Source of the DNA: a virus
Virus record (IMG/VR): IMGVR_UViG_3300031524_000048
Location: 1-32,886 of that record
Direction: 5' to 3' (one strand)
DNA: 32,886 nucleotides
The notes under the pieces were generated by a model. That model was not told where the DNA came from, did not search any database, and saw only the letters and a program-made list of their open reading frames with translations. A program made the translations under genes and the position numbers. Positions 17,027-31,359 of this stretch are shown here, piece after piece. Each line of letters starts with the position of its first letter. Positions within the stretch are counted from its first letter, which is position 1.

Positions 17027-17027
17027 T

Positions 17028-17057
17028 TTGACCGAATTTCAACCGACCCCCTAGAAC
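17028..17057 (+). promoter_or_regulatory. Candidate leaderless promoter before the 17064 gene
   Basis: TTGACC (17028-17033), 18 bases, TAGAAC (17052-17057); GTG follows 7 bases after the -10. No ribosome site precedes that GTG. The same layout recurs before four other plus-strand structural genes and one minus-strand gene. Confidence 0.45.
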
Positions 17058-17063
17058 CATGCG

Positions 17064-17657
17064 GTGAGCTCCCCCGCGATCCCGGTCCTGCCGCCGCTCA
17101 GCCTGCCGCCGCGGCTCCGCGCCGGCGACGCGCTGAACTGGTCGGTGCAGACGCAGCTCGCCGTCGGCTACAGCGTCTTCTTCGTTCTGACGGCCGTCAT
17201 CGGCACCACCCCCACACGTATCACGCTGCCCACCGTAGCCGTCGACGCCAATGGCGTGGCCGCCTTCGCGCTGGCCAGCACTGACACCGTGAACTATGCG
17301 CCCGGCCGCTACCAGTGGATCGCCTTCTCGGTGGACCCCAGCAGCAACCGCGACGAGCTCGCCCAGGGCGTGATCTACATCCAACCCAACCCCACGGCCA
17401 GCACCATCCCCGACCCGCGCAGCATGAACGTGCAGATCCTCGGGCAGATCACCGCGCTCATCGCAGGCAAGGCGCTGGACGATGTGGCGATGTACAAGAT
17501 CGGCACACGTGAGCTCACGAAGATTCCCATCGACGAGCTGCTGCGCTGGCAGGCGAAGTATGAGGCGCGCGTGCGCCGCGAACGCATCCGCCGCGGCGAG
17601 TACGTGCCCCCCAACACCATCGGCATCACCTTCGGCGGCCGGGGGCAGATGCGATGA
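17064..17657 (+). CDS. Structural protein in the gpW position
   Basis: A 197-residue protein between terminase and portal, where lambda has the head-tail joining protein W. The first 110 residues are beta-rich (RLRAGDALNWSVQTQLAVGY, then YQWIAFSVDPSSNRDELAQG), like an immunoglobulin-type phage domain. The last 75 residues are helical and basic (LIAGKALDDVAMYKIGTREL, then LLRWQAKYEARVRRERIRRG) and resemble gpW in length and pattern. A joining or head-completion role is inferred from order. The start is GTG without a ribosome site. It overlaps the next gene (ATGA). Confidence 0.6.
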   Translation: MSSPAIPVLPPLSLPPRLRAGDALNWSVQTQLAVGYSVFFVLTAVIGTTPTRITLPTVAVDANGVAAFALASTDTVNYAPGRYQWIAFSVDPSSNRDELAQGVIYIQPNPTASTIPDPRSMNVQILGQITALIAGKALDDVAMYKIGTRELTKIPIDELLRWQAKYEARVRRERIRRGEYVPPNTIGITFGGRGQMR

Positions 17658-18010
17658 CATTTCTCAAAGACGTGTTGCCCTACGTGGCCGCTTACCTCGC
17701 GGCGTCCTGTCTGCTAGATGCCGCTAAGGCCCTGGTGCGCTGGGATCGGCGGCGCGCCCACTGGTGGATGTCGTTCCTTCAGACGCTGGAGGAAAATATC
17801 CCGGTGGCGAAGGGCAGTCACCATGTCCTGCGGTTCGCACAATACGGCAGCGATGAGGTCGGCTGGGATGATCGGCTCTGCCTCGAGATCTCGCTCCCGT
17901 CTGGGATAGAGCGCTTCTTTGTCGACGATCAAGATCTGCGGGGCAGTGCAGAGGCTGCGGCCGCGCGGATGACAACGTACATCATTCGGTCGCTTGCGGG
18001 GACACTCTGA
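17654..18010 (+). CDS. Small unassigned membrane-anchor-like protein
   Basis: A 118-residue protein starting with a hydrophobic stretch (LPYVAAYLAASCLLDAAKAL) that could be a membrane helix or a buried helix. The remainder is soluble and includes GSHHVLRFAQYGSDEVGWDD and a strand-rich end. It overlaps both neighbours (ATGA at the start, TGATG at the end), so it is expressed with the portal. No family is recognised. Confidence 0.6.
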   Translation: MTFLKDVLPYVAAYLAASCLLDAAKALVRWDRRRAHWWMSFLQTLEENIPVAKGSHHVLRFAQYGSDEVGWDDRLCLEISLPSGIERFFVDDQDLRGSAEAAAARMTTYIIRSLAGTL

Positions 18011-19668
18011 TGCCACTCCTCGACCTCAACGGCGCCAAGCCCCTCGAAGGCTACAAGTCTGCTCGCACTTCCAGACACGCCCGCCGCACGCTGGAGAACA
18101 TCCCCGGCTTGATCCCCGGCAGCGGCGCCGGCGGCTTTGCGGCCGCGAAGATCAACCGGCTCACGATGGACTTCATCGCGCGGTCGCGCTCGGCCGACCA
18201 GGACCTCTTCGGCGACAACATCCGGCTGCGTGCCCGCGCCCGCGATCTGGCCGTCAACAATCCGTTCGCGCGCAAGTTCCTGGCGATGTGCGTGCAGAAC
18301 GTCGTCGGGCCCCACGGCGTGCTGATGCAGGCCAAGATTACCGGCAAGAACGGCAAGGTCACCGCTGAAACCAAGGTCATCAACGAGAAGATTGAGTCCG
18401 CCTTCCGCGACTGGTGCGAGACCGGGAGCTGCACCGCCGACGGCAAGTTCAGCTGGGTCGAGTACCAGCAGATGGCGATCAAAAACGTCGCGCGCGAGGG
18501 CGAGAACCTGGTGAAGTTCGTCTACTGCCGCGGCTTCAACCCCGTCGGCTTCGCGCTGCAACCGCTGGACAACGACCAGCTCGATGACACGATGATGATC
18601 GGCAACATCGACGGCAGCTCGATCCGCATGGGCGTGGAGGTGGACAAGTACCGCAAGCCGCTCGCGTACCACCTGTGGAACGGCCATCCGCAGGACATCG
18701 TCGCCAGCGACCGCCGGCGCATGCGCGTGCCGGCGACGGAGATCGTCCACACCGCCGTGTGGGAGCGGCCGGGGCAGACGCGCGGCTACACCTGGTTCGC
18801 GGCCGCGATCCTGGCGTTGAACCAGTACGCCGGCTGGGATGAGGCCACGCTGGTCGCTGCGCGCGCGTCGGCGGCGAAGTTCCTGGTCATCGAAAACGAG
18901 TTCGAAGACGGCTACACCGGCGAGGATGAGGACGAGGCCGGCGACTCCGTCAACACCGACGGCACGCAGATGATGACCGCCGACGCCGGCGAGGCGCTGA
19001 ACCTCGACCCCGGCGCGAAGGCCAACTTCATCGACCCGCGCTTCCCGATGAACTCGCACAAGGAGTTCTCGCAGACCTGCCTGCGGTCGATCGCCACCGC
19101 GCTGCTGGTGAGCTATCCGTCGCTGGCTAACGACCTTGAGGGCGTGAACTTCAGCTCCATCCGCGCCGGCCTGCTCGACGAGCGCGATTCGTGGCGCGTG
19201 ATCCAGCACTGGTTCATCACGCATCTGCACAAGCCGGTCTTCGCGGCGTGGCTGCGCATGGCGCTGCTCACGACGCTCGCGGATCTCGAGCTCACGCCGC
19301 AGCAGTGCAAGCAGATTACGTGGCGCGCGCGCGGCTGGGACTGGGTCGATCCGCAGAAGGACGCGAACGCGACGATTTTGAAGTTGAGCAACGGCCTGAC
19401 CACCTACTCCGAGGCGTTGGCGGAGCGCGGCCTGGACTTCGAAGAGACCATGGACCAGCGCGCCTCCGAGCAGAAGTATGTCGAGGACTTGCAGAAGCGC
19501 TTCACTCTCAGGAACCCGGTTACGCTGGGCACCGATCTCGCCGGCGACCAGGGCGGCAAGGGCGTCGCCGCCGGCGCTGAGGAAGACGTCACCGCTGAGG
19601 GCGGCGTCAAACCCGGCGGCTCGGGCGGTGCAGCGGCCGCGAAGCCGGAGAAGAAAGGAAAGCCATAA
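18010..19668 (+). CDS. Portal protein, lambda gpB family
   Basis: A 552-residue protein, close to lambda gpB (533). The N-terminal stretch includes RARARDLAVNNPFARKFLAM and GPHGVLMQAKI, typical of this family. The core has NVAREGENLVKFVYCRGFNP, the crown PATEIVHTAVWERPGQTRGY, and GVNFSSIRAGLLDERDSWRV near residue 380. It forms the dodecameric gate of the head through which the terminase loads DNA and to which the tail binds. The C-terminus is Gly/Ala/Lys-rich. The overlap with the previous stop indicates coupling. Confidence 0.93.
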   Translation: MPLLDLNGAKPLEGYKSARTSRHARRTLENIPGLIPGSGAGGFAAAKINRLTMDFIARSRSADQDLFGDNIRLRARARDLAVNNPFARKFLAMCVQNVVGPHGVLMQAKITGKNGKVTAETKVINEKIESAFRDWCETGSCTADGKFSWVEYQQMAIKNVAREGENLVKFVYCRGFNPVGFALQPLDNDQLDDTMMIGNIDGSSIRMGVEVDKYRKPLAYHLWNGHPQDIVASDRRRMRVPATEIVHTAVWERPGQTRGYTWFAAAILALNQYAGWDEATLVAARASAAKFLVIENEFEDGYTGEDEDEAGDSVNTDGTQMMTADAGEALNLDPGAKANFIDPRFPMNSHKEFSQTCLRSIATALLVSYPSLANDLEGVNFSSIRAGLLDERDSWRVIQHWFITHLHKPVFAAWLRMALLTTLADLELTPQQCKQITWRARGWDWVDPQKDANATILKLSNGLTTYSEALAERGLDFEETMDQRASEQKYVEDLQKRFTLRNPVTLGTDLAGDQGGKGVAAGAEEDVTAEGGVKPGGSGGAAAAKPEKKGKP

Positions 19669-19670
19669 CA

Positions 19671-19892
19671 ATGGCATTCCTTCGCCGCACACACACGCTG
19701 GAGTTCAGTCCCTCCGATCTTGGGCGGCTCGCCTATGCGGCCTACTGCAAGAGCACCGGTGGCGTGTCGCTCGTCTCCGGCGCCCATCTGCCATCGTTCG
19801 AAGGGCTGTCGGAACCGACCCGGGTGGCCTGGAATGAGGCCGCCGTGACCATAGCCCTCCGTGTGATCGACAAGGTCAACGCGAAGCTATGA
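19671..19892 (+). CDS. Small phage protein, first of a tandem paralogous pair
   Basis: A 73-residue protein with the pattern LGRLAYAAYCKSTGGVSLVS, then LPSFEGLSEPTRVAWNEAA. The next gene codes for the same pattern, so these are tandem duplicates. Similar short LA-x-x-AY...LP-x-W...W-x-x-AA proteins are common in phage head modules with unknown role. It lies 2 bases after the portal gene and overlaps its copy by ATGA. Confidence 0.7.
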   Translation: MAFLRRTHTLEFSPSDLGRLAYAAYCKSTGGVSLVSGAHLPSFEGLSEPTRVAWNEAAVTIALRVIDKVNAKL

Positions 19893-20125
19893 AGCTGATG
19901 GAGCTGGGGCAGCTCGCGTATGACGGCTATCGCCGGACCACTGGCGGCGTGTCGTTGGTCTCAGGCGCGCCGCTCCCGCTGTGGGAGGAGCTGGCCTGGC
20001 ATATTCAGGCAGCGTGGGCCGTCGCCGCGGGCGATGTTGCCTGCCACATTATGGGCGACACCACCGCGAAGCTCTCGAAACTGTCCGAAAAACTCCCAAA
20101 TCCACCGGACGCGCCCGGAATTTGA
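19889..20125 (+). CDS. Small phage protein, second of the tandem pair
   Basis: A 78-residue paralogue of the preceding gene: LGQLAYDGYRRTTGGVSLVS and LPLWEELAWHIQAAWAVAA align without gaps. It has a longer C-terminal tail (KLSKLSEKLPNPPDAPGI). It overlaps the first copy by four bases. After its stop lies a candidate promoter for the capsid gene. Confidence 0.7.
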   Translation: MKLMELGQLAYDGYRRTTGGVSLVSGAPLPLWEELAWHIQAAWAVAAGDVACHIMGDTTAKLSKLSEKLPNPPDAPGI

Positions 20126-20151
20126 CAGGATTTCGCCGTTGGCTCGATAAA
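20122..20151 (+). promoter_or_regulatory. Candidate promoter of the protease-capsid gene
   Basis: TTGACA (20122-20127), 18 bases, GATAAA (20146-20151), with the ATG 10 bases past the -10. The preceding 7 bases extend a shared ATTTGAC-x-G-x-ATTTC motif, 13 of 15 identical to 17026-17040. No ribosome site precedes the ATG. Confidence 0.6.
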
Positions 20152-20160
20152 CCGAGCGCG

Positions 20161-22323
20161 ATGTCCAAGCAGCAGCCCCTGACAAACCGGTACTCCGGCG
20201 TCTTGAAGACGCTCTCCGCCGCCGAGGCCAAGAACCTCGACGAGCGCGGCATCCCGAAGAAGCTTGGGCGCCAGGCGCGCAAGGCCACCATCTCCGGCTA
20301 CGACAAGGACACCCACACCGTCACCATGGCGGTGAGCTCGTCGACGCCGGTCGAGCGCTTCTACGGCATCGAGACCCTCTCGCACGAGAAGGGCGCGATC
20401 CGCACCGGCCGGTTGAAGAACGGCATAGCTCTGCTCTTCAACCACGACATGGACCAGCACCTCGGCCGGTCACAGAGCTTCGAGCTTGGCGATCCGCTGC
20501 ACGTCACATCGCGCTTCGGCCCCAGCCCTCTGGCAGTCGAAAAGGAAGCCGACGTCGCCAGCGGCATCCTCGTCGATGTCTCGATCGGCTACCTGGTACA
20601 CGAGTGGGCGATCACGGAGAACAAGGACGGCAGCCGCGACTATCTGGCCGTCGACTGGGAGCTGCTCGAAGTTTCACTGGTCACCGTGCCGGCAGATCCC
20701 ACCGTCGGCGTCGGCCGCTCCTCCGAGGAGGTCGCCGTCAAGGTGCGCAGCTTTACCAAGGCTGATGACGCGGAACGCGCGGCCGAGACCGATGACGACG
20801 GCGGCGAAGGCGACGACGACGAAGACGATGCCGCCACCGGCAGCGACGCCGAGCGCGCCGCAACCCCCACGACTTTAGAAACACCCGCACCACCCACCCC
20901 AGCAACACCACAAAGGACCCACACCATGGCAGAAGCGACCGTTGACCTCGCAGCACAGAATGAGGCGCGCACCGCGCGGCTCCGCACGCTGCACACTACG
21001 TACCCCAAGCTCTTCTCGGAGCGCCAGCTCAACGACGCGATTGCGCTCGACATCCCTGCGCAGCGCGTGCAGGAGTCGATCTTCGATGGCATCGTCCGCG
21101 CCGCCGAAGCCACCGACGTCCCGACCATTGGCGACGACACCTTTGGCCGCATGAGCACGAAGGAGATCCGGAACTACTCCATCGCAGCGGCGTATCGCGC
21201 GGCCGTCAACCTTACCAACCCCGGCACGTTCCGCGGCAAGGAAGAGGGCGGCTTCGAGCGCGAGGTGTCCGAGTCTCTCCTCAAGGAAGCCGAGGCCAAC
21301 GGTGTACGCACCCTGGGCGCGGGCGTTGTCATCCCCAGCGTATCGAACAAGCGTCTGTGGCAGGCACAGCTTGAGCGCGCCGTCACCTCCGGCGGTAACG
21401 CTGGAACGGCGTCGAACTTCACCGTCGTCAACCCCGATCCGATCGAGCTGCTCCGCACGCAGACCGGGTGCCTTGCACTCGGCGCACGTATGCTCAGCGG
21501 CCTCCATGGAGCGATGCAGATGACGCGCCAGAACGCGGCAGCCAGCAGCTCATGGCTCGCTGAAAGCGGGTCGGTGAGCGAGTCGGATCCTGGCTTCGAT
21601 TTCTTTGTGATGAAGCCGAACCGTCTCAGCATCGCCAACGCCTACACCCGCGACTTCCTCGCGCAGTCGGACTTTGCGATCGAAGCGCTCCTCGCCGATG
21701 ACCGCCGCGAGGTCCTCGGCATCTCACTCGACACCGCAGGCATCGCTGGCTCCGGCACCGCGCCGGTTCCCAAAGGCCTGTTCAACTACACCGGCCTCGG
21801 TGCCGTGCTGGCGGGCTCCACGCGCAGCGCGACGACCGGCGCAGTCACCGCAGGCCTGGGCGGCGTACCGCTCAGCTTCGTGGACATCGCTCACATGGAA
21901 TCCGCGCTCGGCACCGGAAACGCTGGCCAGCTCGGTACCCCCGCATGGCTGACCACCTTCGGCATCCGTGGCGCTCTGCTCAGCACCCCGAAGATCCCCG
22001 GCACCGCGACCGACTTCATCTGGCCTGACTCCCCGCTCAACTCCCTCGGGCTACAGGCTGGTCCGCGCGGCTACCAGGCCAAGTGCATCACCAACTCGGC
22101 GCTGACTGGCTTCACTGCCAACAGCGTCGCCGGTTGCCATGCTGCGATTCTCGGGATCTGGAACCAGATGCTCATCGGCGACTGGGGACTCTCCGAGGTG
22201 ATTGTCGATCCGTACACCGGCGCAGCGAACGCCACGATCAACATCACCGAGCATGCCTTCTACGACATCAACTTCCGCCACATCGCTGCCTTCATCGCCT
22301 GCACCTCGGCGGTCCCCAGCTAG
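20161..22323 (+). CDS. Fused prohead protease and HK97-type major capsid protein
   Basis: A 720-residue polyprotein. Residues 1-190 are the maturation protease: His95 in LLFNHDMDQHLGRS, Ser141 in GILVDVSIGYLV and a Glu in ELLEVSLVTVPADP, the HK97 (U35) catalytic arrangement. Residues 190-255 are an Asp/Glu and then Thr/Pro-rich linker. From Met256 (MAEATVDLAAQNEARTARLR) follows a delta/scaffold-like helix region, then the HK97 fold (TGCLALGARMLSGLHGAMQM, AESGSVSESDPGFDFFVMKP, and the P-domain). A ribosome site AAAGGA lies 8 bases before Met256, so a separate capsid chain may be made. The protein cleaves itself and forms the shell. Confidence 0.9.
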   Translation: MSKQQPLTNRYSGVLKTLSAAEAKNLDERGIPKKLGRQARKATISGYDKDTHTVTMAVSSSTPVERFYGIETLSHEKGAIRTGRLKNGIALLFNHDMDQHLGRSQSFELGDPLHVTSRFGPSPLAVEKEADVASGILVDVSIGYLVHEWAITENKDGSRDYLAVDWELLEVSLVTVPADPTVGVGRSSEEVAVKVRSFTKADDAERAAETDDDGGEGDDDEDDAATGSDAERAATPTTLETPAPPTPATPQRTHTMAEATVDLAAQNEARTARLRTLHTTYPKLFSERQLNDAIALDIPAQRVQESIFDGIVRAAEATDVPTIGDDTFGRMSTKEIRNYSIAAAYRAAVNLTNPGTFRGKEEGGFEREVSESLLKEAEANGVRTLGAGVVIPSVSNKRLWQAQLERAVTSGGNAGTASNFTVVNPDPIELLRTQTGCLALGARMLSGLHGAMQMTRQNAAASSSWLAESGSVSESDPGFDFFVMKPNRLSIANAYTRDFLAQSDFAIEALLADDRREVLGISLDTAGIAGSGTAPVPKGLFNYTGLGAVLAGSTRSATTGAVTAGLGGVPLSFVDIAHMESALGTGNAGQLGTPAWLTTFGIRGALLSTPKIPGTATDFIWPDSPLNSLGLQAGPRGYQAKCITNSALTGFTANSVAGCHAAILGIWNQMLIGDWGLSEVIVDPYTGAANATINITEHAFYDINFRHIAAFIACTSAVPS
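20912..20928 (+). promoter_or_regulatory. Internal ribosome site and start in the capsid gene
   Basis: AAAGGA at 20912-20917 and ATG at 20926, spaced 8 bases, in frame with the long gene. Initiation here would give a 465-residue capsid precursor without the protease. Confidence 0.55.
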
Positions 22324-22341
22324 ACCGACACACCCCTGAGA

Positions 22342-22368
22342 GGGGACGGCGCCAACCAGCCCGTCCCC
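22342..22368. other. GC-rich hairpin between capsid and decoration-like genes
   Basis: GGGGACGG and CCGTCCCC, perfect 8-bp arms with an 11-base loop, stand in the 86-bp gap after the capsid stop. There is no T-run, so it may stabilise the capsid mRNA end or reduce read-through. Confidence 0.5.
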
Positions 22369-22409
22369 GCAGACTTTCGCAACACCCCAATTCAGACAGG
22401 AGTTCCACC

Positions 22410-22730
22410 ATGTCCAAGCTCATCACCCTCGCAGCGACGGCCTCTGCCTTCGCCACGCGCTACCCGCACCCCGGCATGGCCGACCTGCAGGCCGCAGCCG
22501 GCAAAGACACCGTCGACGTCCAGGCATCCGCCTTCCGTGGCTTCACCACCGGCGACAAGCTGGTGTGCGTCAAGGCCGAGACGCTCTTCTACGTTTCGGG
22601 ACAGGAGCAGCCCGTATCCATCGGCGACGTTGTCGAGGTCACCGAGGCCGAGTCGCGCTACCTCAAGATGACGAACAAAGCCTTGCTGGCCACACCCGCA
22701 GAGATCGCGGCCGCGCAGAAGGCCGCCTAG
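22410..22730 (+). CDS. Small protein after the capsid gene, possibly decoration or stabilisation
   Basis: A 106-residue protein with a good ribosome site (ACAGGAG, 8 bases before ATG). It reads MSKLITLAATASAFATRYPH, then a beta-rich middle (FRGFTTGDKLVCVKAETLFY, VSIGDVVEVTEAESRYLKMT). Lambda has the shell-stabilising gpD just before the capsid gene; a small beta protein right after it here could serve the same end. That is inference from place and size. Confidence 0.6.
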   Translation: MSKLITLAATASAFATRYPHPGMADLQAAAGKDTVDVQASAFRGFTTGDKLVCVKAETLFYVSGQEQPVSIGDVVEVTEAESRYLKMTNKALLATPAEIAAAQKAA

Positions 22731-22733
22731 CCG

Positions 22734-23060
22734 ATGGCCTTCGGCGACCGCGATCTGCGCGCCTTTTGCAGGACGGTTGGCAGCGTGGCCGTGGCGTTCA
22801 ACAGCGTCTCGACCTACTCCGACGACGGAACGCCCGTCATGGGGTTGCTCGACCAGCCGATGCAGATCAAGCTCGCCGGCGAAGGCGGTGCAGGAGTCGC
22901 CGCTGAGCTGCCCGAGTTGCGGTTGCCGTACAACGCTTTTTCGCCCATGCCGACTGCCGGTGCAGCCATCACCGTCGGCGGCGTGGGTTACACCGTCACC
23001 GCACCCACAGCCGAGGACGATGGCGCGTTCCTCTGTTATTGCCTGAAGGCCACGTCATGA
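22734..23060 (+). CDS. Head-tail joining protein, FII-like
   Basis: A 108-residue beta-rich protein in the position of lambda gpFII. The C-terminal pattern VGGVGYTVTAPTAEDDGAFL followed by a short strand is common in head-tail attachment proteins. It would seal the filled head and provide the tail docking site. It begins 3 bases after the previous stop and overlaps the next gene by ATGA. Confidence 0.65.
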   Translation: MAFGDRDLRAFCRTVGSVAVAFNSVSTYSDDGTPVMGLLDQPMQIKLAGEGGAGVAAELPELRLPYNAFSPMPTAGAAITVGGVGYTVTAPTAEDDGAFLCYCLKATS

Positions 23061-23488
23061 GCGTCTCGATCCAGTCGCAGGTCATCGCCGCCATCGTCGC
23101 GCTGCTCAACGCGGTGGGCGGACCCCGGGCCTACCGCACGCGCATCACGACCTTCGGCACCAACGAGCTGCCGGCGTACAACGTGCTCCCGGCCGAGGAC
23201 GATACCGAGTATGAGACCACCGACGGCACAGAGCATCGCTTCCGCTTCACGGTGCGCAACACCGCGCAGGCCGTCGATGAGGTGGATGTCGCAGTGGACG
23301 CGCTGTACGTCGCGGGGCACAAGGCGATTCTTGCCGACCCCACGCTCGGCGGCCTGGTCCACATCTGCCGCGAGCGCGGATCGAAGTGGGAGTTTGAAGA
23401 CGCCGAGCACGACATGTGCGCGCTCGCCGTCACCTACGAGGTTGAGTTCAGCACGTCGCGGAGTGATCCGAGCGTGAAGTTGTTCTAG
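23057..23488 (+). CDS. Tail terminator/completion protein
   Basis: A 143-residue protein starting at the ATG that overlaps the previous stop. Features: a leading helix (SIQSQVIAAIVALLNAVGGP), beta strands with NELPAYNVLPAEDDTEYETT, a helix with VDEVDVAVDALYVAGHKAIL and the final strand CALAVTYEVEFSTSRSDPS. Order, size and alpha/beta pattern fit the lambda gpU/gpZ class that caps the tail tube and sets its end. The longer upstream frame adds no conserved residues and is rejected. Confidence 0.65.
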   Translation: MSVSIQSQVIAAIVALLNAVGGPRAYRTRITTFGTNELPAYNVLPAEDDTEYETTDGTEHRFRFTVRNTAQAVDEVDVAVDALYVAGHKAILADPTLGGLVHICRERGSKWEFEDAEHDMCALAVTYEVEFSTSRSDPSVKLF

Positions 23489-23508
23489 TTCGAAAAGGAG
23501 ATCCACCG

Positions 23509-24453
23509 ATGAAGACTCTCGACTTCAACCTGGCCGCCGCGATCGCGCGGCGCAACGCGTCCACCATTCACCTCGCAGCCAGCGCCGCGACAGAGGACAA
23601 CGAGCCCCTGCGCGAGGTCACCGGCGAAGAGATCGTCGCGGCGATTCAAGCAGCCGGCGGCCATATCGAGCGCATCGTGCGCGACGACGACGGCCTGATC
23701 TCCGAGCTGATTGGCCACGTTCCGCCCATCGAGCTCGCCGACTATGACCCCGCCGAGATGTCTGAGGTGCTGGAGTCGCTGCATGCCACCGGCGTCACGC
23801 CGACGAAGCTCACCGGCGACCTGGCGCAGGCCAGCGTCGGCAGCTCGATCGCGTTCACCGGCAGCACCACCACCGGCTCAGCGGTGATCACCAGCCCCAG
23901 TTCGATGACAGGCCTCGCGGTCGGCCAGCCGGTCTCCGGCACCGGCATCCCGGCGAACGCGACCCTCTCGCTGCTCAGCCCGCTCACCATCAGCGCCAAC
24001 GCCACAGCCACCGGCTCCGGCGTCGCGCTCATCGCCGACGCCGAGGTGCAGGTCCTCGGCCTGAGCGAGTGGACCATCGACTGGAAGCGCAAGACCGTGG
24101 ACACCACCACCACCGACAGCGCGACCTACGAGTCCGCGCTCCCCTCGACGGCGAGCTGGACCGTCAAGTCGAAGCACATGTTCATCGACGGCGACAGCTC
24201 GCAGGCGACGAACATCCTGGCCGCGTTGCAGACGCCCACCGGCGCGCTGATGTGGAACTTCTTCCCCACCATCGCCACCGGCCGCGCCGGCTTCCAGGGT
24301 CAGGCCTTCATCGACGGCATCACGCTCGCCGCCGGCGTGGGCAAGGTCGTTGGTCTGGATGTCTCGCTCAAGGGCACCGGGCCGCTCACGCAGCTCGCGC
24401 AGACCGCACCGGTGATTTCCACAACCACCACTGGACTCCAGGCAGAGGAGTAG
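23509..24453 (+). CDS. Major tail tube protein with an inserted module
   Basis: A 314-residue protein with a strong ribosome site (AAAAGGAG). The C-terminal half (VQVLGLSEWTIDWKRKTVDT, then SWTVKSKHMFIDGDSSQATN and GRAGFQGQAFIDGITLAAGV) is typical of gpV-like tube proteins that stack as hexamers. Residues about 117-172 hold a separate module, SSMTGLAVGQPVSGTGIPAN and LTISANATATGSG, that is also found inside the gpL-like protein at 30481. The first 105 residues are helical and not usual for tube proteins. Followed by a strong terminator hairpin. Confidence 0.8.
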   Translation: MKTLDFNLAAAIARRNASTIHLAASAATEDNEPLREVTGEEIVAAIQAAGGHIERIVRDDDGLISELIGHVPPIELADYDPAEMSEVLESLHATGVTPTKLTGDLAQASVGSSIAFTGSTTTGSAVITSPSSMTGLAVGQPVSGTGIPANATLSLLSPLTISANATATGSGVALIADAEVQVLGLSEWTIDWKRKTVDTTTTDSATYESALPSTASWTVKSKHMFIDGDSSQATNILAALQTPTGALMWNFFPTIATGRAGFQGQAFIDGITLAAGVGKVVGLDVSLKGTGPLTQLAQTAPVISTTTTGLQAEE

Positions 24454-24486
24454 GTACTGTAACTCCATCGAGGCGCGAGCCTCTCA

Positions 24487-24518
24487 GCACAGCGGCCTCC
24501 TTCGGGAGGCCGTTGTGC
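24487..24518. terminator. Strong bidirectional terminator hairpin
   Basis: A 14-bp stem with one G-U pair and a TTCG tetraloop: arms 24487-24500 and 24505-24518, core CGGCCTCC and GGAGGCCG. It stands between the plus-strand tube gene and the minus-strand HicB gene. No T-run follows, but position and stability fit a bidirectional terminator. Confidence 0.7.
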
Positions 24519-24534
24519 GTCCATGGCCGCGGTG

Positions 24535-24948
24535 CTAGGCGACCTGCAACTCGATGTTCTTGCCCAGCGCCTTCATCGCTTCGTCGATCGAATCGATCTT
24601 GGTCACGATATGCGGGTCCAGCAGGCGCGTCATCTCCTGGCGGGGCAGGTTCAATCGCCTCGCCAGCTCGGACGGACGCACCTGCTGGGTCAGCAGTTCG
24701 TTGTGCAGCAGGACCTTCGCCGCCAGGCTTACCGGGATATTGATCGAAGGCCTGCCCCGGCGAACCTTCGACGGCAGAGGCACGGGCAGCTTGTTCTCAA
24801 AGTAGTGATCCAGCATCGTCTCCAGCGCATCGGCGGCTTGAAGCAGAGCGTCTTCCTCGTCGTCGCCAAAGGTGTTCACGCCGGGGACATCGTCGACGGC
24901 AACGACCAGCTTTCCGTCGCTGGGCGTCAGGGTGATGGGGTAGCGCAT
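24535..24948 (-). CDS. hicB: HicB-type antitoxin
   Basis: A 137-residue antitoxin. The N-terminal RNase-H-like HicB domain shows VAVDDVPGVNTFGDDEEDAL and ADALETMLDHYFENKLPVPL. The C-terminal half has a DNA-binding helix-turn-helix (VRPSELARRLNLPRQEMTRL). TAGGAGC, sharing the hicA stop, lies 7 bases before the ATG at 24948. It blocks HicA and, through its HTH, represses the operon. The pair lies antisense between tail genes, an arrangement of a moron. Confidence 0.9.
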   Translation of the reverse strand: MRYPITLTPSDGKLVVAVDDVPGVNTFGDDEEDALLQAADALETMLDHYFENKLPVPLPSKVRRGRPSINIPVSLAAKVLLHNELLTQQVRPSELARRLNLPRQEMTRLLDPHIVTKIDSIDEAMKALGKNIELQVA

Positions 24949-24957
24949 AGTTAGCTC

Positions 24958-25140
24958 CTATTTGAGACCGAGGTCTCTCTTGATGGCGTTTACGGTGCCC
25001 GTGGGGATTTCCTTGCTCGGGTGGTTGGGGAACGTGGTCACTTTGCCGTTCAGGTAAGCCCGCTGGTGGGAGCCCTTTCCTTGTGTGCTGAAGGTGACTC
25101 CCTGTTTCTTTAGCCAGCGCTTCAGCTCTGAACTCGTCAT
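24958..25140 (-). CDS. hicA: HicA-type mRNA interferase toxin
   Basis: A 60-residue toxin of usual HicA length. It has the dsRNA-binding-like fold with the conserved sequence SELKRWLKKQGVTFSTQGKG followed by the catalytic His24 (GSHQRAY), then the NHPSKEIPTGTVNAIKRDLG end. HicA cleaves mRNA without ribosome help. The ATG at 25140 is the predicted transcript start, and no ribosome site precedes it. HicB follows after 9 bases. Confidence 0.9.
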   Translation of the reverse strand: MTSSELKRWLKKQGVTFSTQGKGSHQRAYLNGKVTTFPNHPSKEIPTGTVNAIKRDLGLK

Positions 25141-25146
25141 AAAGAT

Positions 25147-25175
25147 AATGTAATAGATTTCTATTACAATGTCAA
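25147..25175 (-). promoter_or_regulatory. hicAB promoter and operator
   Basis: On the minus strand TTGACA (25175-25170), 17 bases, TACATT (25152-25147). The perfect inverted repeat GTAATAG-N4-CTATTAC (25150-25167) lies in the spacer and touches the -10, fitting HicB repression. The predicted start is the A of the hicA ATG, so the transcript is leaderless. The stretch is AT-rich compared with its surroundings. Confidence 0.75.
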
Positions 25176-25238
25176 GTAGTTTGTAAAAGATTTCTCTAAC
25201 ATTTCTGAGGCTCCATCGCGCTCGCTGAGCGGGCGTCT

Positions 25239-25268
25239 TTGACATGAATCGCCGTCCTGCCGCAGATT
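25239..25268 (+). promoter_or_regulatory. Candidate leaderless promoter before the G-like gene
   Basis: TTGACA (25239-25244), 18 bases, CAGATT (25263-25268), ATG 8 bases after the -10. The ATG at 25276 has no ribosome site. The promoter would restart tail transcription after the inverted HicAB module. Confidence 0.45.
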
Positions 25269-25275
25269 CGGCTGC

Positions 25276-25788
25276 ATGACGGACCTCCTTTTGCAGCGCG
25301 GCGCCCAGCCCATCGACCTCGATAAACCGCGAGTTCTTTTCTTCGACCTCGCCGCCACTTTCACCCTGGTGCAGAAGTACGGGCTCAACTACCTGCGCGC
25401 GATCTACCGGCTGGAGGGCACAGCCCTGGTGCTCGCCGATCCTGACGCGCTGGTCGACGTGATCCACATCGGCGTGCAGGCGGAGTGCCGTCAGCGCGGC
25501 GAGGAGATGACCCTGGACGAGGTCCGCGCCGCGATCGGGCCGTGGAACATCCGCGAGATCGCCGGCGCGCTGGTCAAGTCGCTGATGGGGGCGGCTGCGA
25601 TGCCGCAGCGGCCGGGAAAATCCGCCGCGCTCCCGCTGTCGGCGAGCGCGAGCGCAGCCGAAGAGACAGCCGAGGCCGATTCTGCCGCGCCGGCGAAGAG
25701 GAAGACACCGCCGGAGCCCGGAGCTACGCGGGCTTCGACTTCGATGAAGCGCTCCGCTTCGCCCTCGCGACGCTCCACTGGTCGGTAG
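25276..25788 (+). CDS. Tail assembly chaperone, G-like
   Basis: A 170-residue protein preceding the tape measure, where lambda has gene G. The N-terminal part is compact (DKPRVLFFDLAATFTLVQKY, YLRAIYRLEGTALVLADPDA, MTLDEVRAAIGPWNIREIAG), and the tail is Ala/Ser-rich and disordered. A GGGAAAA slippery heptamer at 25614-25620 permits a shift into the overlapping T frame. Both products would coat the tape measure and attract tube subunits during assembly. Confidence 0.8.
   Translation: MTDLLLQRGAQPIDLDKPRVLFFDLAATFTLVQKYGLNYLRAIYRLEGTALVLADPDALVDVIHIGVQAECRQRGEEMTLDEVRAAIGPWNIREIAGALVKSLMGAAAMPQRPGKSAALPLSASASAAEETAEADSAAPAKRKTPPEPGATRASTSMKRSASPSRRSTGR
25614..25650 (+). promoter_or_regulatory. 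Programmed -1 frameshift site with downstream hairpin
   Basis: GGGAAAA is read as G-GGA-AAA in the G frame, the X-XXY-YYZ form. After a 5-base spacer comes a stem CGCGCTC (25626-25632) and GAGCGCG (25644-25650) with an inner CCG-CGG pairing, a likely stimulator. The shift joins codon AAA of G to the frame that ends at 26057. Confidence 0.78.
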
Positions 25789-26057
25789 AACAGTTCTGGA
25801 CCAGCACCCCGCGCGAGTTCAACCTGGCTCGCCAGGGGCACTTTGACGCGCAGGAATCCCACAGCCGCGAGACCGCCGGCTGGATGGCGCTGCTGCTCTC
25901 CGCGCAGACCGGCCAGCCTGTCACCGCAGCCATGCTGCTGGGCGAAGAAGCCGAAGAGCTCGCCGACCGCACTGCCGAGGCGGAGGCCTCGGTGGAGAAG
26001 CTCTTGAAAAAGATGGACGAGGCGGGGCTCAGGAAGCCCTCGAAGGAGCGTCCCTAA
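25620..26057 (+). CDS. T part of the GT frameshift fusion
   Basis: After the -1 shift the frame continues 145 residues, giving a fusion of about 260 residues with the first 115 of G. The conserved T-like domain is YAGFDFDEALRFALATLHWS, then VEQFWTSTPREFNLARQGHF, followed by an acidic helix. The W-S-V-E-Q-F-W-T-S-T-P-R-E-F pattern is seen in other second tail-chaperone domains. No good start codon exists for separate expression. It ends immediately before the tape measure ATG. Confidence 0.78.
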   Translation: MRRAPAVGERERSRRDSRGRFCRAGEEEDTAGARSYAGFDFDEALRFALATLHWSVEQFWTSTPREFNLARQGHFDAQESHSRETAGWMALLLSAQTGQPVTAAMLLGEEAEELADRTAEAEASVEKLLKKMDEAGLRKPSKERP

Positions 26058-28703
26058 ATGGCTGGTAGAGGGATAGTTATCCGTATTGAAGGCGACGGCG
26101 CCAGCGCGAAGGCGGCGCTGGAGATGGTGCGCGAGCAGCTCGCACAGACCGGCGAGCAGGGCTCTCGCACCGCCGACATGATGAGCGAGTCGATGGAGCG
26201 GATCAAGCACTCGCTCGAATATGTCGGCATCTACATGGGCATCCGCGAGGCGATCGACGGCCTCAAGGAGATGGTCGGCGGCTCGGTCGAGCTGGGCGTG
26301 GAGCTGGGGCATCTACACCAGCAGACCGGCATCAGCACGGAGAACCTCTCGGTGCTGAAGTACATGGCCGACTCCACCGGCGTGAGCTTCGACGCGCTGA
26401 CCAGGGGCGCGAAAAAATTCAGCACGGAGATCCGCAACACCGACGAGGGATCGAAGCCGGCCGTCCAGGCGTTCGCGCGGATCGGCATCTCGCAGGAAAC
26501 CGTCCGCAAGACCGGCGGCGACATGTACGCGATGCTCGGCCTGGTCGCGGACCGCTTCCAGAAGCTGCCCGACGGGCCGCTGAAGGCCGCTTCCGCCGTC
26601 GATCTCTTCGGCAAGGGCGGACTGGCGCTGATCCCGATCCTCAATCAAGGGCGCGCCGGCATCGAGGGCTTCAGGTCGGAGGCTGAATCGCTGGGCCTGG
26701 TACTCGACGAGCAGGGCATCGCGAAGATGGAAGCCCTCCATGCCGCGACGATCAAGGTGGAGGGAGCGCTGCGCGGCGCAGGCCTGGGCATCACCGAGGG
26801 GCTGGAGCCCGCGCTGCTGGAGCTGGAGCAGGCCATCGCCAGCGTGACCGGCTCAGGCGACGGCTTTGTCACCATGGGCCAGCACATGGGCAACATCCTG
26901 CTCGGCGTCGCGAACGCGGCCGCCTATCTTGTGAAGTTCCTGCGCCAGGCTAAAGACGAGTGGGTCGCGCTGGGGCAGCTCGGCACCGCCGACGCCAGCA
27001 AGCTCGACTCGATGCTGGGGATCGGATCCGCCTCGCGCAGCCAATACCGCGCGGACAACACCAACGCCCTCGCGGGAGAGAAGGCGGCTCTACAGGACAT
27101 CAAGGACGCCGAGGCTGACTACCAGACCTTCGCCAACAAACTCGCCATGGGGCTCGACGGCGGCGACCAGGGCGTCATCACGCTGGCCAACGGCAACAAG
27201 GCCATGAAGCGGCCGAAGCCTGGCGGCACCGGCACCGACGACTTCGATCAGCAGCACCAGGGCGGCAAAGGCAAGTCCACAGATGGCGTCGCTCGCGCGG
27301 CCGAGGCCTACGCTGCCGAGCAGGCCAAGGCAGCCGCCGATGCGCGCAAGGCCTTCGACCAGGAGGAGCTGGCGGAGCTGGAGTCGCACCACAAGCAACT
27401 GCTGATGTCCGACCAGGAGTTCTACGCGGAGAAGCTCAAGCTCCAGCTCGACGAGCTCGACACGGAGCACGACGGGCTGAACTCAAAGTACAACGACCTC
27501 GCAGCCCTCCAGGGGAAACAGCACGGCGACAAGACGCTGAAGCGTGACAGCACCGGTACGTCGGCCGAAGAGTACAACACGCAGCGCGAGATGCTGGCCG
27601 TCGGCGCGCAGCTCACGGAGAACGAGGCCAAGCGCAACGAGCTGAAGGCTGCTTACAACGCGCAGGTCACTTCCGGCGCCGCGGCGGCCGAGCTGGCCAA
27701 CCTGCGCGCTGCGGCGGAGCTGGAGAAGGAACGCGGGCACGGCACGGCCGCGCAGATTGCGCTGCTACAGCGTGAGCATGAACTTGAAGCGCAGAAGGTC
27801 ACGCGCGAAGGTGGATCCGCCGCGGCCGCGCAGCAGATCCGCGACGCCGGCGAGCTGGCCGCGAAGAAGTTGCAGATCACCGACATCAATCGCCAGATCG
27901 AGCAGAGCGAGGAAGCCAACCGCGCGGCCGTGCAGCGGCTGAACGATGCCGCCGCCAAAGACCCGCGGCTGAAGAAGGAGTCCACCGCCGAGATCAACGC
28001 GCTCAACAGGGCCGAGGCCCAGCAGTTGCAGCAGCTCGTCGCGGCCTACGACGCGCTGGCGAAGGTGCTCGGCGGCGAGTACCTCGCGAAGTCGAAGGAG
28101 CTGCACGCGCAGCTCGATGAGATGAACACGCCCAGCAACAAGGGCAGCGCCAAGATCGGCGAGGACGTCGCCCAGGGCGTGGAGTCCATGGCCGAGCGCA
28201 TGGCCCGCGCCAGCGAGAGCGGCAAGGACAGCTTCCACAAGATGGCGCAGGGCATCGAGGAGGACATCACGCAGCTCGCTATCAAGCTCGCGTTCCAGAA
28301 GTTCCTCACGCCGCTGCTGACCGGGCTCTTCAACGGCGGCGCCGGCGGCGGTGTGCCGCAGGTGCCGGACAGTATGTTCGCCAGCATGGACCTGCCGGGC
28401 TTCGCCTCGGGTGGCGATCCCACCGGGCCCAGCATCGTCGGCGAGCAGGGGCCGGAGCTCTTCATGCCCAAGGGCCCGGGGACCATCGTACCCAGCTCAC
28501 TGACCACACAGCTCGCGAAGAGCGGCGGCGGCGGCGCGCCCAACATCACGCAGAACATCATCAATCAGAGCTCGCAGCCGGTGACGGCACAGCCGCCCCA
28601 GGTGAACTACGACGAGGAAGGCCGATCGTGGATCTCGCACACGGTCCTCACCGACCTGGCGCAGGGCGGCCCGATCTCACAGGCCTTCCGGCAGTCAAGC
28701 TAG
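26058..28703 (+). CDS. Tail tape measure protein
   Basis: An 881-residue protein, near lambda gpH (853), that sets tail length. The N-terminal region has DGASAKAALEMVREQLAQTG and a globular part with ISTENLSVLKYMADSTGVSF. Residues about 395-680 are coiled coil (Ala, Glu, Lys and Gln-rich). The C-terminal region has the usual ending LPGFASGGDPTGPSIVGEQG, PELFMPKGPGTIVPSS and NIINQSSQPVTAQPP. The ATG follows the GT stop at once and has GGAG about 10 bases before. It will be coated by G and GT until tube subunits replace them. Confidence 0.92.
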   Translation: MAGRGIVIRIEGDGASAKAALEMVREQLAQTGEQGSRTADMMSESMERIKHSLEYVGIYMGIREAIDGLKEMVGGSVELGVELGHLHQQTGISTENLSVLKYMADSTGVSFDALTRGAKKFSTEIRNTDEGSKPAVQAFARIGISQETVRKTGGDMYAMLGLVADRFQKLPDGPLKAASAVDLFGKGGLALIPILNQGRAGIEGFRSEAESLGLVLDEQGIAKMEALHAATIKVEGALRGAGLGITEGLEPALLELEQAIASVTGSGDGFVTMGQHMGNILLGVANAAAYLVKFLRQAKDEWVALGQLGTADASKLDSMLGIGSASRSQYRADNTNALAGEKAALQDIKDAEADYQTFANKLAMGLDGGDQGVITLANGNKAMKRPKPGGTGTDDFDQQHQGGKGKSTDGVARAAEAYAAEQAKAAADARKAFDQEELAELESHHKQLLMSDQEFYAEKLKLQLDELDTEHDGLNSKYNDLAALQGKQHGDKTLKRDSTGTSAEEYNTQREMLAVGAQLTENEAKRNELKAAYNAQVTSGAAAAELANLRAAAELEKERGHGTAAQIALLQREHELEAQKVTREGGSAAAAQQIRDAGELAAKKLQITDINRQIEQSEEANRAAVQRLNDAAAKDPRLKKESTAEINALNRAEAQQLQQLVAAYDALAKVLGGEYLAKSKELHAQLDEMNTPSNKGSAKIGEDVAQGVESMAERMARASESGKDSFHKMAQGIEEDITQLAIKLAFQKFLTPLLTGLFNGGAGGGVPQVPDSMFASMDLPGFASGGDPTGPSIVGEQGPELFMPKGPGTIVPSSLTTQLAKSGGGGAPNITQNIINQSSQPVTAQPPQVNYDEEGRSWISHTVLTDLAQGGPISQAFRQSS

Positions 28704-28704
28704 A

Positions 28705-28718
28705 CGGGCATTTGCCCG
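28705..28718. other. Short perfect hairpin after the tape measure gene
   Basis: CGGGCA-TT-TGCCCG begins 2 bases after the tape measure stop. It overlaps the -35 element TTGCCC of the next candidate promoter. It may be a weak terminator or simply part of that promoter. Confidence 0.4.
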
Positions 28719-28741
28719 AAAGCCTCGCGGTAGCGCATACA
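28712..28741 (+). promoter_or_regulatory. Candidate leaderless promoter before the 28751 gene
   Basis: TTGCCC (28712-28717), 18 bases, CATACA (28736-28741), ATG 10 bases after. It shares TTTGCCCGAAA with the promoter before 30109. Confidence 0.4.
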
Positions 28742-28750
28742 CAACGGGCC

Positions 28751-29293
28751 ATGACGACGCTCAGACTCCATCCCAACCGTGTCCCCTTTGAGGGCGTACT
28801 CACGCGGCTCGACCAACCCAGCGACAAGTCCCCCCGCGGCGCGCTGGGGCACCCTGTCATCCTCACCTCGGCGGCCGCGCAGGACGCGCTGCCGACTCTG
28901 GTCGGCATGGCCGTCAACTTCAGCGAGACCTTTGACGACCACGACGTGCGGCAGAAGTGCGGCGTGATCACCGCCGCGGCCATCGTGGGCGATGAGCTGC
29001 GCGTGCAGGGGCACCTGTTCTGCCACGACTTCCCGGAGGTCGCCGAGGAGATGAAGAAGCCGAACGCTAATATGGGCATGAGCTACGACATGGTCAACGC
29101 CCGCGTGCAGGATCTGCGCGCGCCGGTGTGGCTGCTGATCAGCGTGACCTTCACCGGCGCGGCGATGCTGAAGCAGTCCAAGGCCGCCTACAAGTCCACC
29201 AGCTTCAGAATCGCAGCGGTCGGCGAGCGCTTCACCGGCAAGCTGTCGTTGCTGGGCAGCGTGCGGCTGGTGAAGGCTAAGCTCAAAACGTAA
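28751..29293 (+). CDS. Protease-like protein in the tail region
   Basis: A 180-residue protein whose order of motifs resembles phage prohead proteases: a His in NFSETFDDHDVRQKCGVITA, then strands (GDELRVQGHLFCHDFPEVAE) and a Ser in NANMGMSYDMVNARV. In the prohead protease of this phage the equivalents are FNHD and DVSIGY. Homologues are usually next to the capsid; one beside the minor tail genes is unusual. It could process the tape measure or a tail-tip protein, or be an inactive relative. The ATG at 28751 has no ribosome site. Assignment is by pattern only. Confidence 0.55.
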   Translation: MTTLRLHPNRVPFEGVLTRLDQPSDKSPRGALGHPVILTSAAAQDALPTLVGMAVNFSETFDDHDVRQKCGVITAAAIVGDELRVQGHLFCHDFPEVAEEMKKPNANMGMSYDMVNARVQDLRAPVWLLISVTFTGAAMLKQSKAAYKSTSFRIAAVGERFTGKLSLLGSVRLVKAKLKT

Positions 29294-30053
29294 CCCGCAT
29301 CCCGCTCTTGAGCGCGTTGTTCACCAGCACCTCGGCGGCGGCGCGGGTGAAGTTCTTCTCCTGGTCGGCGGCGACGGCCGCGGCGACCAGGTCCTCCATC
29401 GGAAAGCGCGGCTTGATGTGCGCGTGCCGGACCAGCACGTACCAGGGCTCGGCGTCCTGGCTGCCGCCGTGGTAGCCGATGCCGCCGTGGCGCACGAAGA
29501 TGCACAGCGTCCCCGCCTGGGTCTGCTGGATGAACGCGACGAACTCGCCGTTGACCAGCCGCTTACGCATGGCTTTCGTGTCTCCGCGACGCGGCCGGTC
29601 GCCACGCGCGGCGAAGCTGCCGGAGTACTTCACGCCGATCTCCACGCCCGGCGGCAGCAGGTTCTTCGGCCGCAGCGCGTCAGGCAGCACGCCCGGCGCC
29701 ACGTTGCGCAGATACCTCGTCGGGATTGCCAGGAAGGTGTGGCCGGCCAGCGGAACCTTCTCCCCGCCCGTGTCCTGGCGGGGCAGGTAGTCTGGGGCTC
29801 CAGTTTTCCAGTTGCTGGTGTCCGTGTAGACCTCAGAGAACTGGGTCTCTTTCTTCGCCGGCGTGATCTTCGTCATGCGCACGGTCCAGTCATTGCGCAG
29901 CTTGAAGACGCCCTTCTCCCCCGCGCGGGCAGCGGTCTGCCCGCTCTGGGCCTGCATGGTGAGGAAGCGCGCGATCGTAAACGGCAGGTCGTCGCCCAGC
30001 ATCTTCTCGATGCCGCCGGGCACGTCGCCGAGATCGCACTTGAGGGTGATCAC
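29283..30053 (-). CDS. gpZ-like minor tail protein on the opposite strand
   Basis: A 256-residue basic protein antisense to the tail operon. The order LPFTIARFLTMQAQSGQTAA, LRNDWTVRMTKITPAKKETQ, YLPRQDTGGEKVPLAGHTFL, LLPPGVEIGVKY and the ending FIQQTQAGTLCIFVRHGG, then RHAHIKPRFPMEDLVAAAVA resembles the lambda gpZ/tail-completion class. The start is uncertain: GTG at 30053 has a promoter-like TTGCCG-N18-GAGACT placing transcription at it; TTG at 30089 would add 12 residues. The 3' end overlaps the 28751 gene by 11 bases. A structural gene facing the wrong way is unexpected, so it may be a lysogen-expressed gene. Confidence 0.55.
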   Translation of the reverse strand: MITLKCDLGDVPGGIEKMLGDDLPFTIARFLTMQAQSGQTAARAGEKGVFKLRNDWTVRMTKITPAKKETQFSEVYTDTSNWKTGAPDYLPRQDTGGEKVPLAGHTFLAIPTRYLRNVAPGVLPDALRPKNLLPPGVEIGVKYSGSFAARGDRPRRGDTKAMRKRLVNGEFVAFIQQTQAGTLCIFVRHGGIGYHGGSQDAEPWYVLVRHAHIKPRFPMEDLVAAAVAADQEKNFTRAAAEVLVNNALKSGMRVTF

Positions 30054-30059
30054 GCGCTG

Positions 30060-30089
30060 AGTCTCGCGGCTTTTGCCCGAAACCGGCAA
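30060..30089 (-). promoter_or_regulatory. Candidate leaderless promoter of the minus-strand gpZ-like gene
   Basis: TTGCCG (30089-30084), 18 bases, GAGACT (30065-30060), then GTG 7 bases after the -10. It overlaps the plus-strand promoter at 30073-30102 in divergent arrangement. Confidence 0.35.
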
Positions 30090-30102
30090 CTTACGCCATA
30101 AC
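30073..30102 (+). promoter_or_regulatory. Candidate leaderless promoter of the gpM-like gene
   Basis: TTGCCC (30073-30078), 18 bases, CATAAC (30097-30102), GTG 7 bases after. No ribosome site precedes the GTG. The element would drive the tail-tip genes M, L, K and J. Confidence 0.45.
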
Positions 30103-30108
30103 CTTGCG

Positions 30109-30480
30109 GTGAGCTACCCACCCTTCCCCGAGTTGAGCCGCAAGCCTGCGCTGAAGCAGCGCCGGTCGACGCTCGATCCCACCCTCCGCGACAACATGGA
30201 GAACGGGATGGAGAGCACCCGCGCCCGTTACACGCGGCAGCGGCGGCAGTTTGCGGTCTCGGTGGACGCGCTCACCCCCTGGGACGTCAACGCGCTGGAG
30301 ATCTTCGTCGTCAACGTCGCGGTCTACGGCGCGGAGATCTTCCTCTTTCCCGACGTGCGCGACCCTAAAAATCCAGCTTGGTACACGGTGCGCTTCTCCA
30401 CGCTGCCGGCCTATGCGGATGCGGGCAGCGTGAACGGCGAGTTCCGCCAGAACTGCACCTTCGAACTGCGGGAGGTGTAG
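30109..30480 (+). CDS. Minor tail protein, gpM-like
   Basis: A 123-residue beta-rich protein. The gpM-like pattern is RRSTLDPTLRDNMENGMEST, RYTRQRRQFAVSVDALTPWD and EFRQNCTFELREV, with the order and size of lambda gpM (109). It is part of the tail-tip complex between tape measure and L. GTG at 30109 is chosen because the preceding residues are not conserved in type and the candidate promoter begins transcription there. The next gene starts right after its stop. Confidence 0.75.
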   Translation: MSYPPFPELSRKPALKQRRSTLDPTLRDNMENGMESTRARYTRQRRQFAVSVDALTPWDVNALEIFVVNVAVYGAEIFLFPDVRDPKNPAWYTVRFSTLPAYADAGSVNGEFRQNCTFELREV

Positions 30481-31359
30481 GTGAGCACCACGCGGCCCAT
30501 GTTCAGCCTGCTCTCGGTGGTCGCCAACCAGGAGCGCCACAAGCTCGCCAGCGGCGAGCCCTGGCTGCTGCTGCTGGACCTGGTCTATCCCGGCGCCGCC
30601 AACCCCGGCGCGACGCAGCAGCACGTCCGCCTGGTGCGCAACCTGGACCCCGTGACCTTTGACGCCGGCGACGGCAACGGCCCGCAGCTCTACACGCCCT
30701 TCAACTTCGAGCTCGGCGATGTGACGTCGACGACGCAGGGCAGCTATCCGGAGTCCTCCATCAAGGTCTCGAACGTGATGCGCGTGTTGCAGACCACCAT
30801 TGAGGCCTACGGTGGCGTCGTCGGCGCGAACCTGAACCTCTATGTGGTGAACGCCGCCAACCCCGCCGGCGAGCCCGAGCTGGCGCTGGCCTTCACCGTC
30901 CTGCAAACCACCTGCGACGTGAAGCTGGTGACCTTCAAGCTGGGAGCGTGCAGCCCGCTGCGGCGGCTCTTCCCGCTGTTCATGTACCGGCCAAACTACT
31001 GCATCTGGCAGTACAAGGGCCTCCAGTGCGGCTACGTGGACCCTGCGCCCTTCAGCGCGACGCTGGCCTCGGGTTCGCCGCTGTTCACTCCCGCGAGCGT
31101 CACCGGGCTAGCAGTAGGCATGCCGCTGGCCGCGGCCGGCATCCCTGCCAACACCACGATCCTCTCCATCACCGGCGGCGTGGTGACGATGTCCGCGAAC
31201 GCAACGGCCTCGGGCAGCAAGACGATCACCATCGCCTTCACCACCTGCGCGCACACCATCGACGGCTCAACCGGCTGCCAGGCGCACGCGAACCTGCTGC
31301 GCTTCGGCGGCTTCCCGGGCATCGACTCCAACGGCGCGGCCGCGGCAGGTGTCGCATGA
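30481..31359 (+). CDS. Minor tail protein, gpL-like iron-sulfur protein
   Basis: A 292-residue protein. The C-terminal domain has the gpL cysteines C174 (RPNYCIWQYKG), C183 (LQCGYV), C256 (TTCAHTIDG) and C266 (STGCQAHANLLRFGGFPGI); in lambda four Cys bind a 4Fe-4S cluster. Between the second and third Cys an extra module of about 60 residues is inserted (SVTGLAVGMPLAAAGIPANT, VVTMSANATASGSK), the same module as in the tail tube. GGAGG precedes the GTG at 30481. It is a part of the tail-tip hub that contacts J. Confidence 0.82.
   Translation: MSTTRPMFSLLSVVANQERHKLASGEPWLLLLDLVYPGAANPGATQQHVRLVRNLDPVTFDAGDGNGPQLYTPFNFELGDVTSTTQGSYPESSIKVSNVMRVLQTTIEAYGGVVGANLNLYVVNAANPAGEPELALAFTVLQTTCDVKLVTFKLGACSPLRRLFPLFMYRPNYCIWQYKGLQCGYVDPAPFSATLASGSPLFTPASVTGLAVGMPLAAAGIPANTTILSITGGVVTMSANATASGSKTITIAFTTCAHTIDGSTGCQAHANLLRFGGFPGIDSNGAAAAGVA

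Follow-up and report, generated by a model that had tools for sequence, protein, structure and literature searches.

Recurrent start-codon-proximal copies of a putative late promoter class in the virion gene region of a lambda-like phage

Introduction

How is a late region expressed when several of its genes, scattered along the structural block, have no ribosome site and open directly behind a pair of promoter-like boxes? Lambda has a single late promoter, PR', with Q antitermination. The question is raised by IMGVR_UViG_3300031524_000048, a virus record of 32,886 bp that was analysed over its full length (the window; G000 in comparisons). The virus looks like a lambda-like temperate soil phage, in that its left part holds an integrase end, a XerD-type recombinase, toxin-antitoxin genes, repressors and replication genes, and the terminase, portal, fused protease-capsid, tail and J genes occupy 14.3-32.9 kb. 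An initial annotation had proposed that leaderless promoters, each made of TTG(A/C)C(A/C), 18 bases and a -10-like hexamer close to a start codon, are dispersed through this structural region.

The major capsid protein (MCP) of the window is 79% identical to that of L004, 75% to G001/L005, 67% to L008, 58% to G002/L009, 56% to G003/L012, 54% to L010, 53% to L169 and 50% to L011, and up to eight other phage contigs (capsid protein 50-79% identical) carry the sites described here at the corresponding genes. A near-identical longer contig, G004, begins at window position 3325 and runs ~8.3 kb beyond the right end. An element common to more distant capsid relatives (~29% identical) was rejected after examination. 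No consistent host emerged from tblastn against plasmids with the HerA-like, HicB, HTH, capsid, XerD and 13594 proteins, and scans of genome contigs gave no match.

Results

All five plus-strand sites lie where they had been placed, with 18 bases between the boxes in each, and none of the five genes has a ribosome site; their start codons stand 6-9 bases past an A-rich -10-like box. The motif as first written is present at all five but is one conserved T short, the element really containing TTTG(A/C)C. The first of these genes encodes a head-tail joining protein (17064-17657, plus strand; phrog_5774, E=7e-22) and follows a putative promoter at 17027-17057 (TTTGACC-N18-TAGAAC-N6-GTG17064; matrix score 24.1). 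The fused protease-major capsid protein gene (20161-22323, plus; phrog_617, E=1e-84) follows the site at 20121-20151 (TTTGACA-N18-GATAAA-N9-ATG20161; 26.6), and the genes distal to it, encoding a small protein without family match (22410-22730, plus) and the major tail protein (23509-24453, plus; phrog_1407, E=1e-7), carry the ribosome sites AGGAG and AAAGGAG, respectively, and no promoter of their own.

The site at 25238-25268 (TTTGACA-N18-CAGATT-N7-ATG25276) scores 15.0, the lowest of the window, and its orthologues in G001, L008, G002 and G003 read TTTGAC-N18-TANANN. It precedes a gene in the tail-assembly-chaperone position (25276-25788, plus), named from position only and without family match, which is followed in the same predicted unit by the tape-measure gene (26058-28703, plus; tape-measure phrogs) with the ribosome site AAGGAG. 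A further site at 28711-28741 (TTTGCCC-N18-CATACA-N9-ATG28751; 17.2), conserved in G001, L008, G002 and G003, precedes a 180-aa gene without family match (o180; 28751-29293, plus). The last site within the window, at 30072-30102 (TTTGCCC-N18-CATAAC-N6-GTG30109; 22.3), is conserved in G001 and G003 and precedes a tail/virion structural gene (o123; 30109-30480, plus; phrog_384, E=2.5e-6), behind which a minor tail protein gene (30481-31359, plus; phrog_18, E=2e-15) has the ribosome site GGAGGTG and no promoter. The five start codons are well founded, since alignments of the orthologous proteins open at these codons or only a few residues away.

A weight matrix built from the other phages, with the window virus left out, gave six matches in the window at a cut-off of at least 15, at 14113, 17027, 20121, 25238, 28711 and 30072. 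Five of these are the reported sites, and 200 dinucleotide shuffles of the window yielded a mean of 0.155 matches at this cut-off. The early region and the minus strand were both free of class sites. When matrices were built with one phage left out at a time, the known sites were among the top matches in G000-G003, and the strong extra matches likewise lay in the late region.

The sixth match, which is absent from the initial list of sites, belongs to the same class (14113-14143, plus; TTTGAC..GATAAC; score 21.0) and heads the terminase genes, ~145-150 nt before terS and without an adjoining start codon. It stands in the same place in G001 and G002, where, as in the window, it overlaps, abuts or follows the end of the upstream gene, so that coding constraint is not its explanation. 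Two more sites lie past the right end of the window in G004. That at window coordinate 36048, beyond J, is of the leaderless type, and that at 39919 has a leader and the ribosome site GGGGAGGG. There are thus about eight copies per virus, six of them at start codons, and the first and last have leaders. Because of these two copies the class is to be described as late promoters and not as a start-codon-defined element.

In the window virus and its relatives taken together, the MCP site is found in nine of nine phages. The site at the head-joining gene stands directly before it in four phages and before an inserted gene in two, the chaperone-position site is found in five, that of o180 in five and that of o123 in three, a fourth phage having an o123 site whose -35 has decayed. 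At o123 of G002 a weaker -35 (TTGCGC) is accompanied by a -10 that is improved (TATAAC), which is what a promoter would be predicted to show. Counted over seven other phages, with the MCP start of G002 corrected by hand, the motif precedes 21 of 24 orthologues of the five genes and one of 46 neighbouring late genes. Since the neighbours mostly have ribosome sites, these counts agree with the initial claim that such genes lack the motif and speak against TTG-N18 patterns being equally common before them. Two of the three misses are cases in which an inserted small gene carries the promoter, and the third is the decayed -35. A DNA pattern derived from the MCP site had 7 matches in 2.9 million viral contigs: six are MCP gene starts of the same clade, one of them in a ninth phage outside the set used to build the pattern, and one is a repeat without an adjoining gene start.

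The class consensus is (A/T)TTTG(A/C)C-N3-WW, 18 bp between the boxes and a -10 of [TGC]A.AAC. Of 34 sites, 32 have a spacer of 18 bp and two a spacer of 19 bp. Between orthologues the -35 is 96% identical, the -10 79% and the spacer sequence 42%. Over 38 sites, information is limited to WTTTGMC-N3-WW and the -10, and there is none upstream of position -2 relative to TTTG. All 34 -10 boxes have A at position 2 and two have T at position 6.

The minus-strand site reported at 30053 could not be retained in the class, as it scores below 12 and has a poor -10 (GAGACT; GATCAT in G003). Its TTGCCG is the second arm of a palindrome, TTGCC-N7-GGCAA (30073-30089), that overlaps the plus-strand -35 and is kept in G001 and G003 and absent from G002. 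The minor tail protein gene concerned (29283-30053, minus; phrog_1924, E=6e-18) is convergent with the gene at 28751 and divergent from that at 30109, an orientation shared by G001, G002 and G003.

Leaderless genes have a TA-like (-10) signal, its first base at about -12 and +1 being the start codon, with the consensus TANNNT (Zheng 2011, PMC3160421). In the phages analysed here, genes directly behind the putative promoter lack an SD, the sole match being at the L004 MCP, where it overlaps the -10 by chance, and an SD is present at most other late genes, so that head genes without and distal genes with an SD are found as in that description. The -10-like box also lies at a corresponding distance from the start: among the 34 sites the interval is exactly 6 nt in 17, 5 nt in four and 7 nt in two (23 at 5-7 nt), and 9 nt in ten and 10 nt in one (11 at 9-10 nt). 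The TANNNT consensus itself is not followed, A2 being invariant and T6 nearly absent. From these distances the predicted +1 falls on the start codon or up to ~3 bases before it; the 9 bases that separate -10 and ATG at the capsid gene leave room for a leader of 1-3 nt.

The clearest evidence for leaderlessness comes from two gene insertions. In G000, L004, G001 and G002 the head-joining gene, directly behind the promoter, lacks an SD. L008 and G003 have a gene of 57 and 46 aa, respectively, between the two; this inserted gene, now next to the promoter, is without an SD, and the head-joining gene behind it has AAGGAG. Such a swap is what leaderless heads of separate transcription units predict. 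In G003 an additional gene, of 139 aa, stands ahead of the capsid gene and has a separate copy of the MCP promoter to itself.

A sigma-70 promoter has TTGACA, 16-18 bp and TATAAT with A2 and T6. The late class comes near this consensus in its -35 and has the A2, but nearly lacks T6, and a strict sigma-70 scan listed none of the six sites. Two canonical toxin-antitoxin promoters of the window, at 3827-3864 (TTGACA-N17-TATAGT-N6-ATG3862) and, on the minus strand, at 25175-25138 (TTGACA-N17-TACATT-N6-ATG25140), differ from the late class in their 17-bp spacers and in a -10 ending in T, and resemble it in having start codons 6 nt after the -10. The late class may therefore depend on a particular sigma factor or on an activator encoded by the phage. 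Plasmids of five bacterial groups (Acidobacteriota, Gemmatirosa, Sphingomonas, Paraburkholderia and Mycobacterium; 1.3 Mb in total) showed no enrichment of the class, those of Acidobacteriota (580 kb) giving two matches against seven in the reversed control.

Directly upstream of the terminase-gene promoter lies a conserved protein gene (13594-14142, plus; 39-62% identical in G001, G002 and G003), a candidate late regulator by position only. The protein had no Pfam, PHROG or fold match (fold search with a model of pLDDT 68). No Q homologue was identified, and none of the window proteins that were searched resembled Ogr.

Discussion

The late region of this virus is probably a chain of transcription units, each expressed from one copy of a late promoter class that mostly stands at a start codon and yields a leaderless head gene. 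The region would then not be one operon but a succession of units, each with its own promoter copy. At six of the about eight copies the -10 ends 5-9 bases before the start codon, so near that RNA polymerase is predicted to initiate on the start codon itself or no more than ~3 bases from it. The head gene would be translated from a leaderless or nearly leaderless mRNA and the distal genes through ribosome sites or coupling, and the transcripts from the terminase-gene copy and the last copy would have leaders. Both the promoter nature of the motif and initiation at the start codon are inferred from sequence, and the timing would be set by a phage late regulator or a particular sigma factor. Conservation of boxes and spacing, the absent ribosome sites and the insertions in L008 and G003 make dispersed leaderless promoters the best-supported reading of the initial proposal, although its minus-strand member and its definition by the start codon have to be given up.

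The same sites could be imagined as operators resembling mycobacteriophage stoperators, with a repressor or elongation blocker bound to TTTGAC and real transcription coming from the terminase-gene promoter alone. TGTCAAG, which occurs in some cluster A stoperators, is the complement of CTTGACA, and the sites are in one orientation, near gene starts and in compact intergenic gaps. A bound block would, however, not account for the conservation of a second box at a fixed 18 bp and of a fixed start-codon distance when the spacer is not conserved, and it leaves the loss of ribosome sites and the SD swap unexplained. Stoperators are single-block asymmetric sites bound by repressor genome-wide, whereas these are two-box sites confined to the late region, with none at early genes, and we consider operators improbable. 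Repeated, mostly one-way motifs just upstream of phage gene starts are also known from cluster K mycobacteriophages, namely the Start-Associated Sequences (SAS; PMC3203893), and the tight link between the present motif and start codons of genes without ribosome sites would fit a signal guiding ribosomes to SD-less starts. High-scoring copies nevertheless stand apart from any start codon, one ~145 nt ahead of the terminase genes and another near the right end ahead of a gene with an SD, and the bipartite 18-bp form is promoter-like, whereas SAS is a single 13-bp block (GGGATAGGAGCCC); a translation signal therefore seems very improbable indeed.

Somewhat less improbable, though still unlikely, is that these are ordinary sigma-70 promoters of a host whose leaderless-rich grammar the phage has copied, with nothing phage-specific about them. 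Acidobacteria (9.7-19.4%), Actinobacteria and Deinococcus-Thermus are rich in leaderless genes (PMC3160421), and the start codons 6 nt after the -10 at the toxin-antitoxin genes point the same way. Those promoters, however, have a different spacer and -10, the late class is missing from the early region, and it showed no enrichment in the plasmids of the five groups tested. A more specific version of the promoter-chain reading can be put forward only tentatively, and we think it rather doubtful: the class would be phage-specific and need more than the main sigma factor of the host to be read, RNA polymerase would be redirected to it by a phage regulator, for which the 13594-14142 protein is a possible candidate, and the virion genes would be made mostly from leaderless mRNAs. 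A change of promoter recognition would in that case also change the mode of translation.

The promoter chain has partial counterparts. PhiYS40 is a lytic Thermus phage with a different genome plan. Most of its middle and late mRNAs have no leader (PMC3594737), as is predicted from sequence for late mRNAs here, but the present virus is a lambda-like temperate phage in which an 18-bp class is limited to the late genes. P2, whose four late promoters PP, PO, PV and PF are activated by Ogr (PMC3931495), is alike in being a temperate phage with virion genes split into operons by several copies of one late-promoter class; its promoters, however, carry TGT-N12-ACA for Ogr, whereas nothing of the kind is found upstream of the -35 here, and in the present phage start codons abut the -10. 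Cluster O mycobacteriophages such as Corndog have predicted leaderless SigA promoters with +1 at the start codon, two divergent ones near the left end and one that is leftward, and one of the predicted promoters serves a reversed gene of the structural operon (PMC4351075), compared with about eight late-region copies heading successive units here, conserved in up to nine diverged phages. Leaderless late mRNAs and multiple late promoters are thus each known separately, and the initial suggestion of a distinct way of running a late region has to be narrowed by these precedents; it may stand in so far as the literature searched contained no report of a lambda-like phage whose late genes are split into about eight units by a single 18-bp promoter class lying mostly at start codons.

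The protein encoded at 13594-14142 occupies the position of Q in lambda. In both phages a late-class promoter precedes the terminase genes and follows directly on a conserved gene at the place of Q, and the difference lies in the further promoter copies inside the structural region here. If the promoter-chain reading is true, lambda-like virion genes need not rely on one long antiterminated transcript, and structural modules with their own promoter can be inserted, duplicated or re-ordered, as in L008 and G003. The phages would also offer a compact natural set of leaderless genes, including that of the major capsid protein, of which much must be made. Relatives would then allow a gene in its leaderless form to be compared with the same gene led by an SD.

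The idea that a terminator precedes every promoter was rejected, strong ones being present at some sites only. In favour of separate units, strong terminator-like hairpins run into the chaperone-gene promoter in G002 and G003. Most other sites have no upstream terminator, and read-through from upstream promoters is therefore likely to contribute as well.

Other features of the phage genome

The sequence GCGGGTAACGCGCCACCG, located 5′ of the first terminase gene terS, is the same in four diverged phages, namely in the window (14231-14248) and in the related contigs G001 (13043), G002 (reverse complement, 30236) and G003 (40669), and it is a likely cos site.

Immediately ahead of the late region lies a conserved minus-strand gene (12626-13366) with 59-67% identity in three relatives. 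No family match was found for its protein, which carries a cysteine/histidine pattern resembling a SWIM zinc finger. The window also encodes a KhpA/KhpB-type KH RNA-binding protein (12225-12515; PF13083, E=3e-14), and G003 has such a gene with 42% identity. Intergenic, partly palindromic repeats made up of GGGTGCC/GGCACCC units occur in the early region (4510-4550, 5340-5395, 8585-8625, 10440-10470, 11400-11450, 11625-11660 and 11995-12020), most of them directly preceded by stop codons; no enrichment was seen in the three relatives checked (G001, G002 and G003).

Among the virion genes, a minus-strand HicAB-like pair (24535-25140) is inserted between the tail tube gene and the gene in the chaperone position. 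With the layout TTGACA-N17-TACATT-N6-ATG, hicA would itself be leaderless. Two adjacent small genes (19671-20125) are paralogues with 48% identity. Within the tail genes, one minor tail gene (29283-30053) runs against its neighbours on the other strand, and G001, G002 and G003 keep this orientation.
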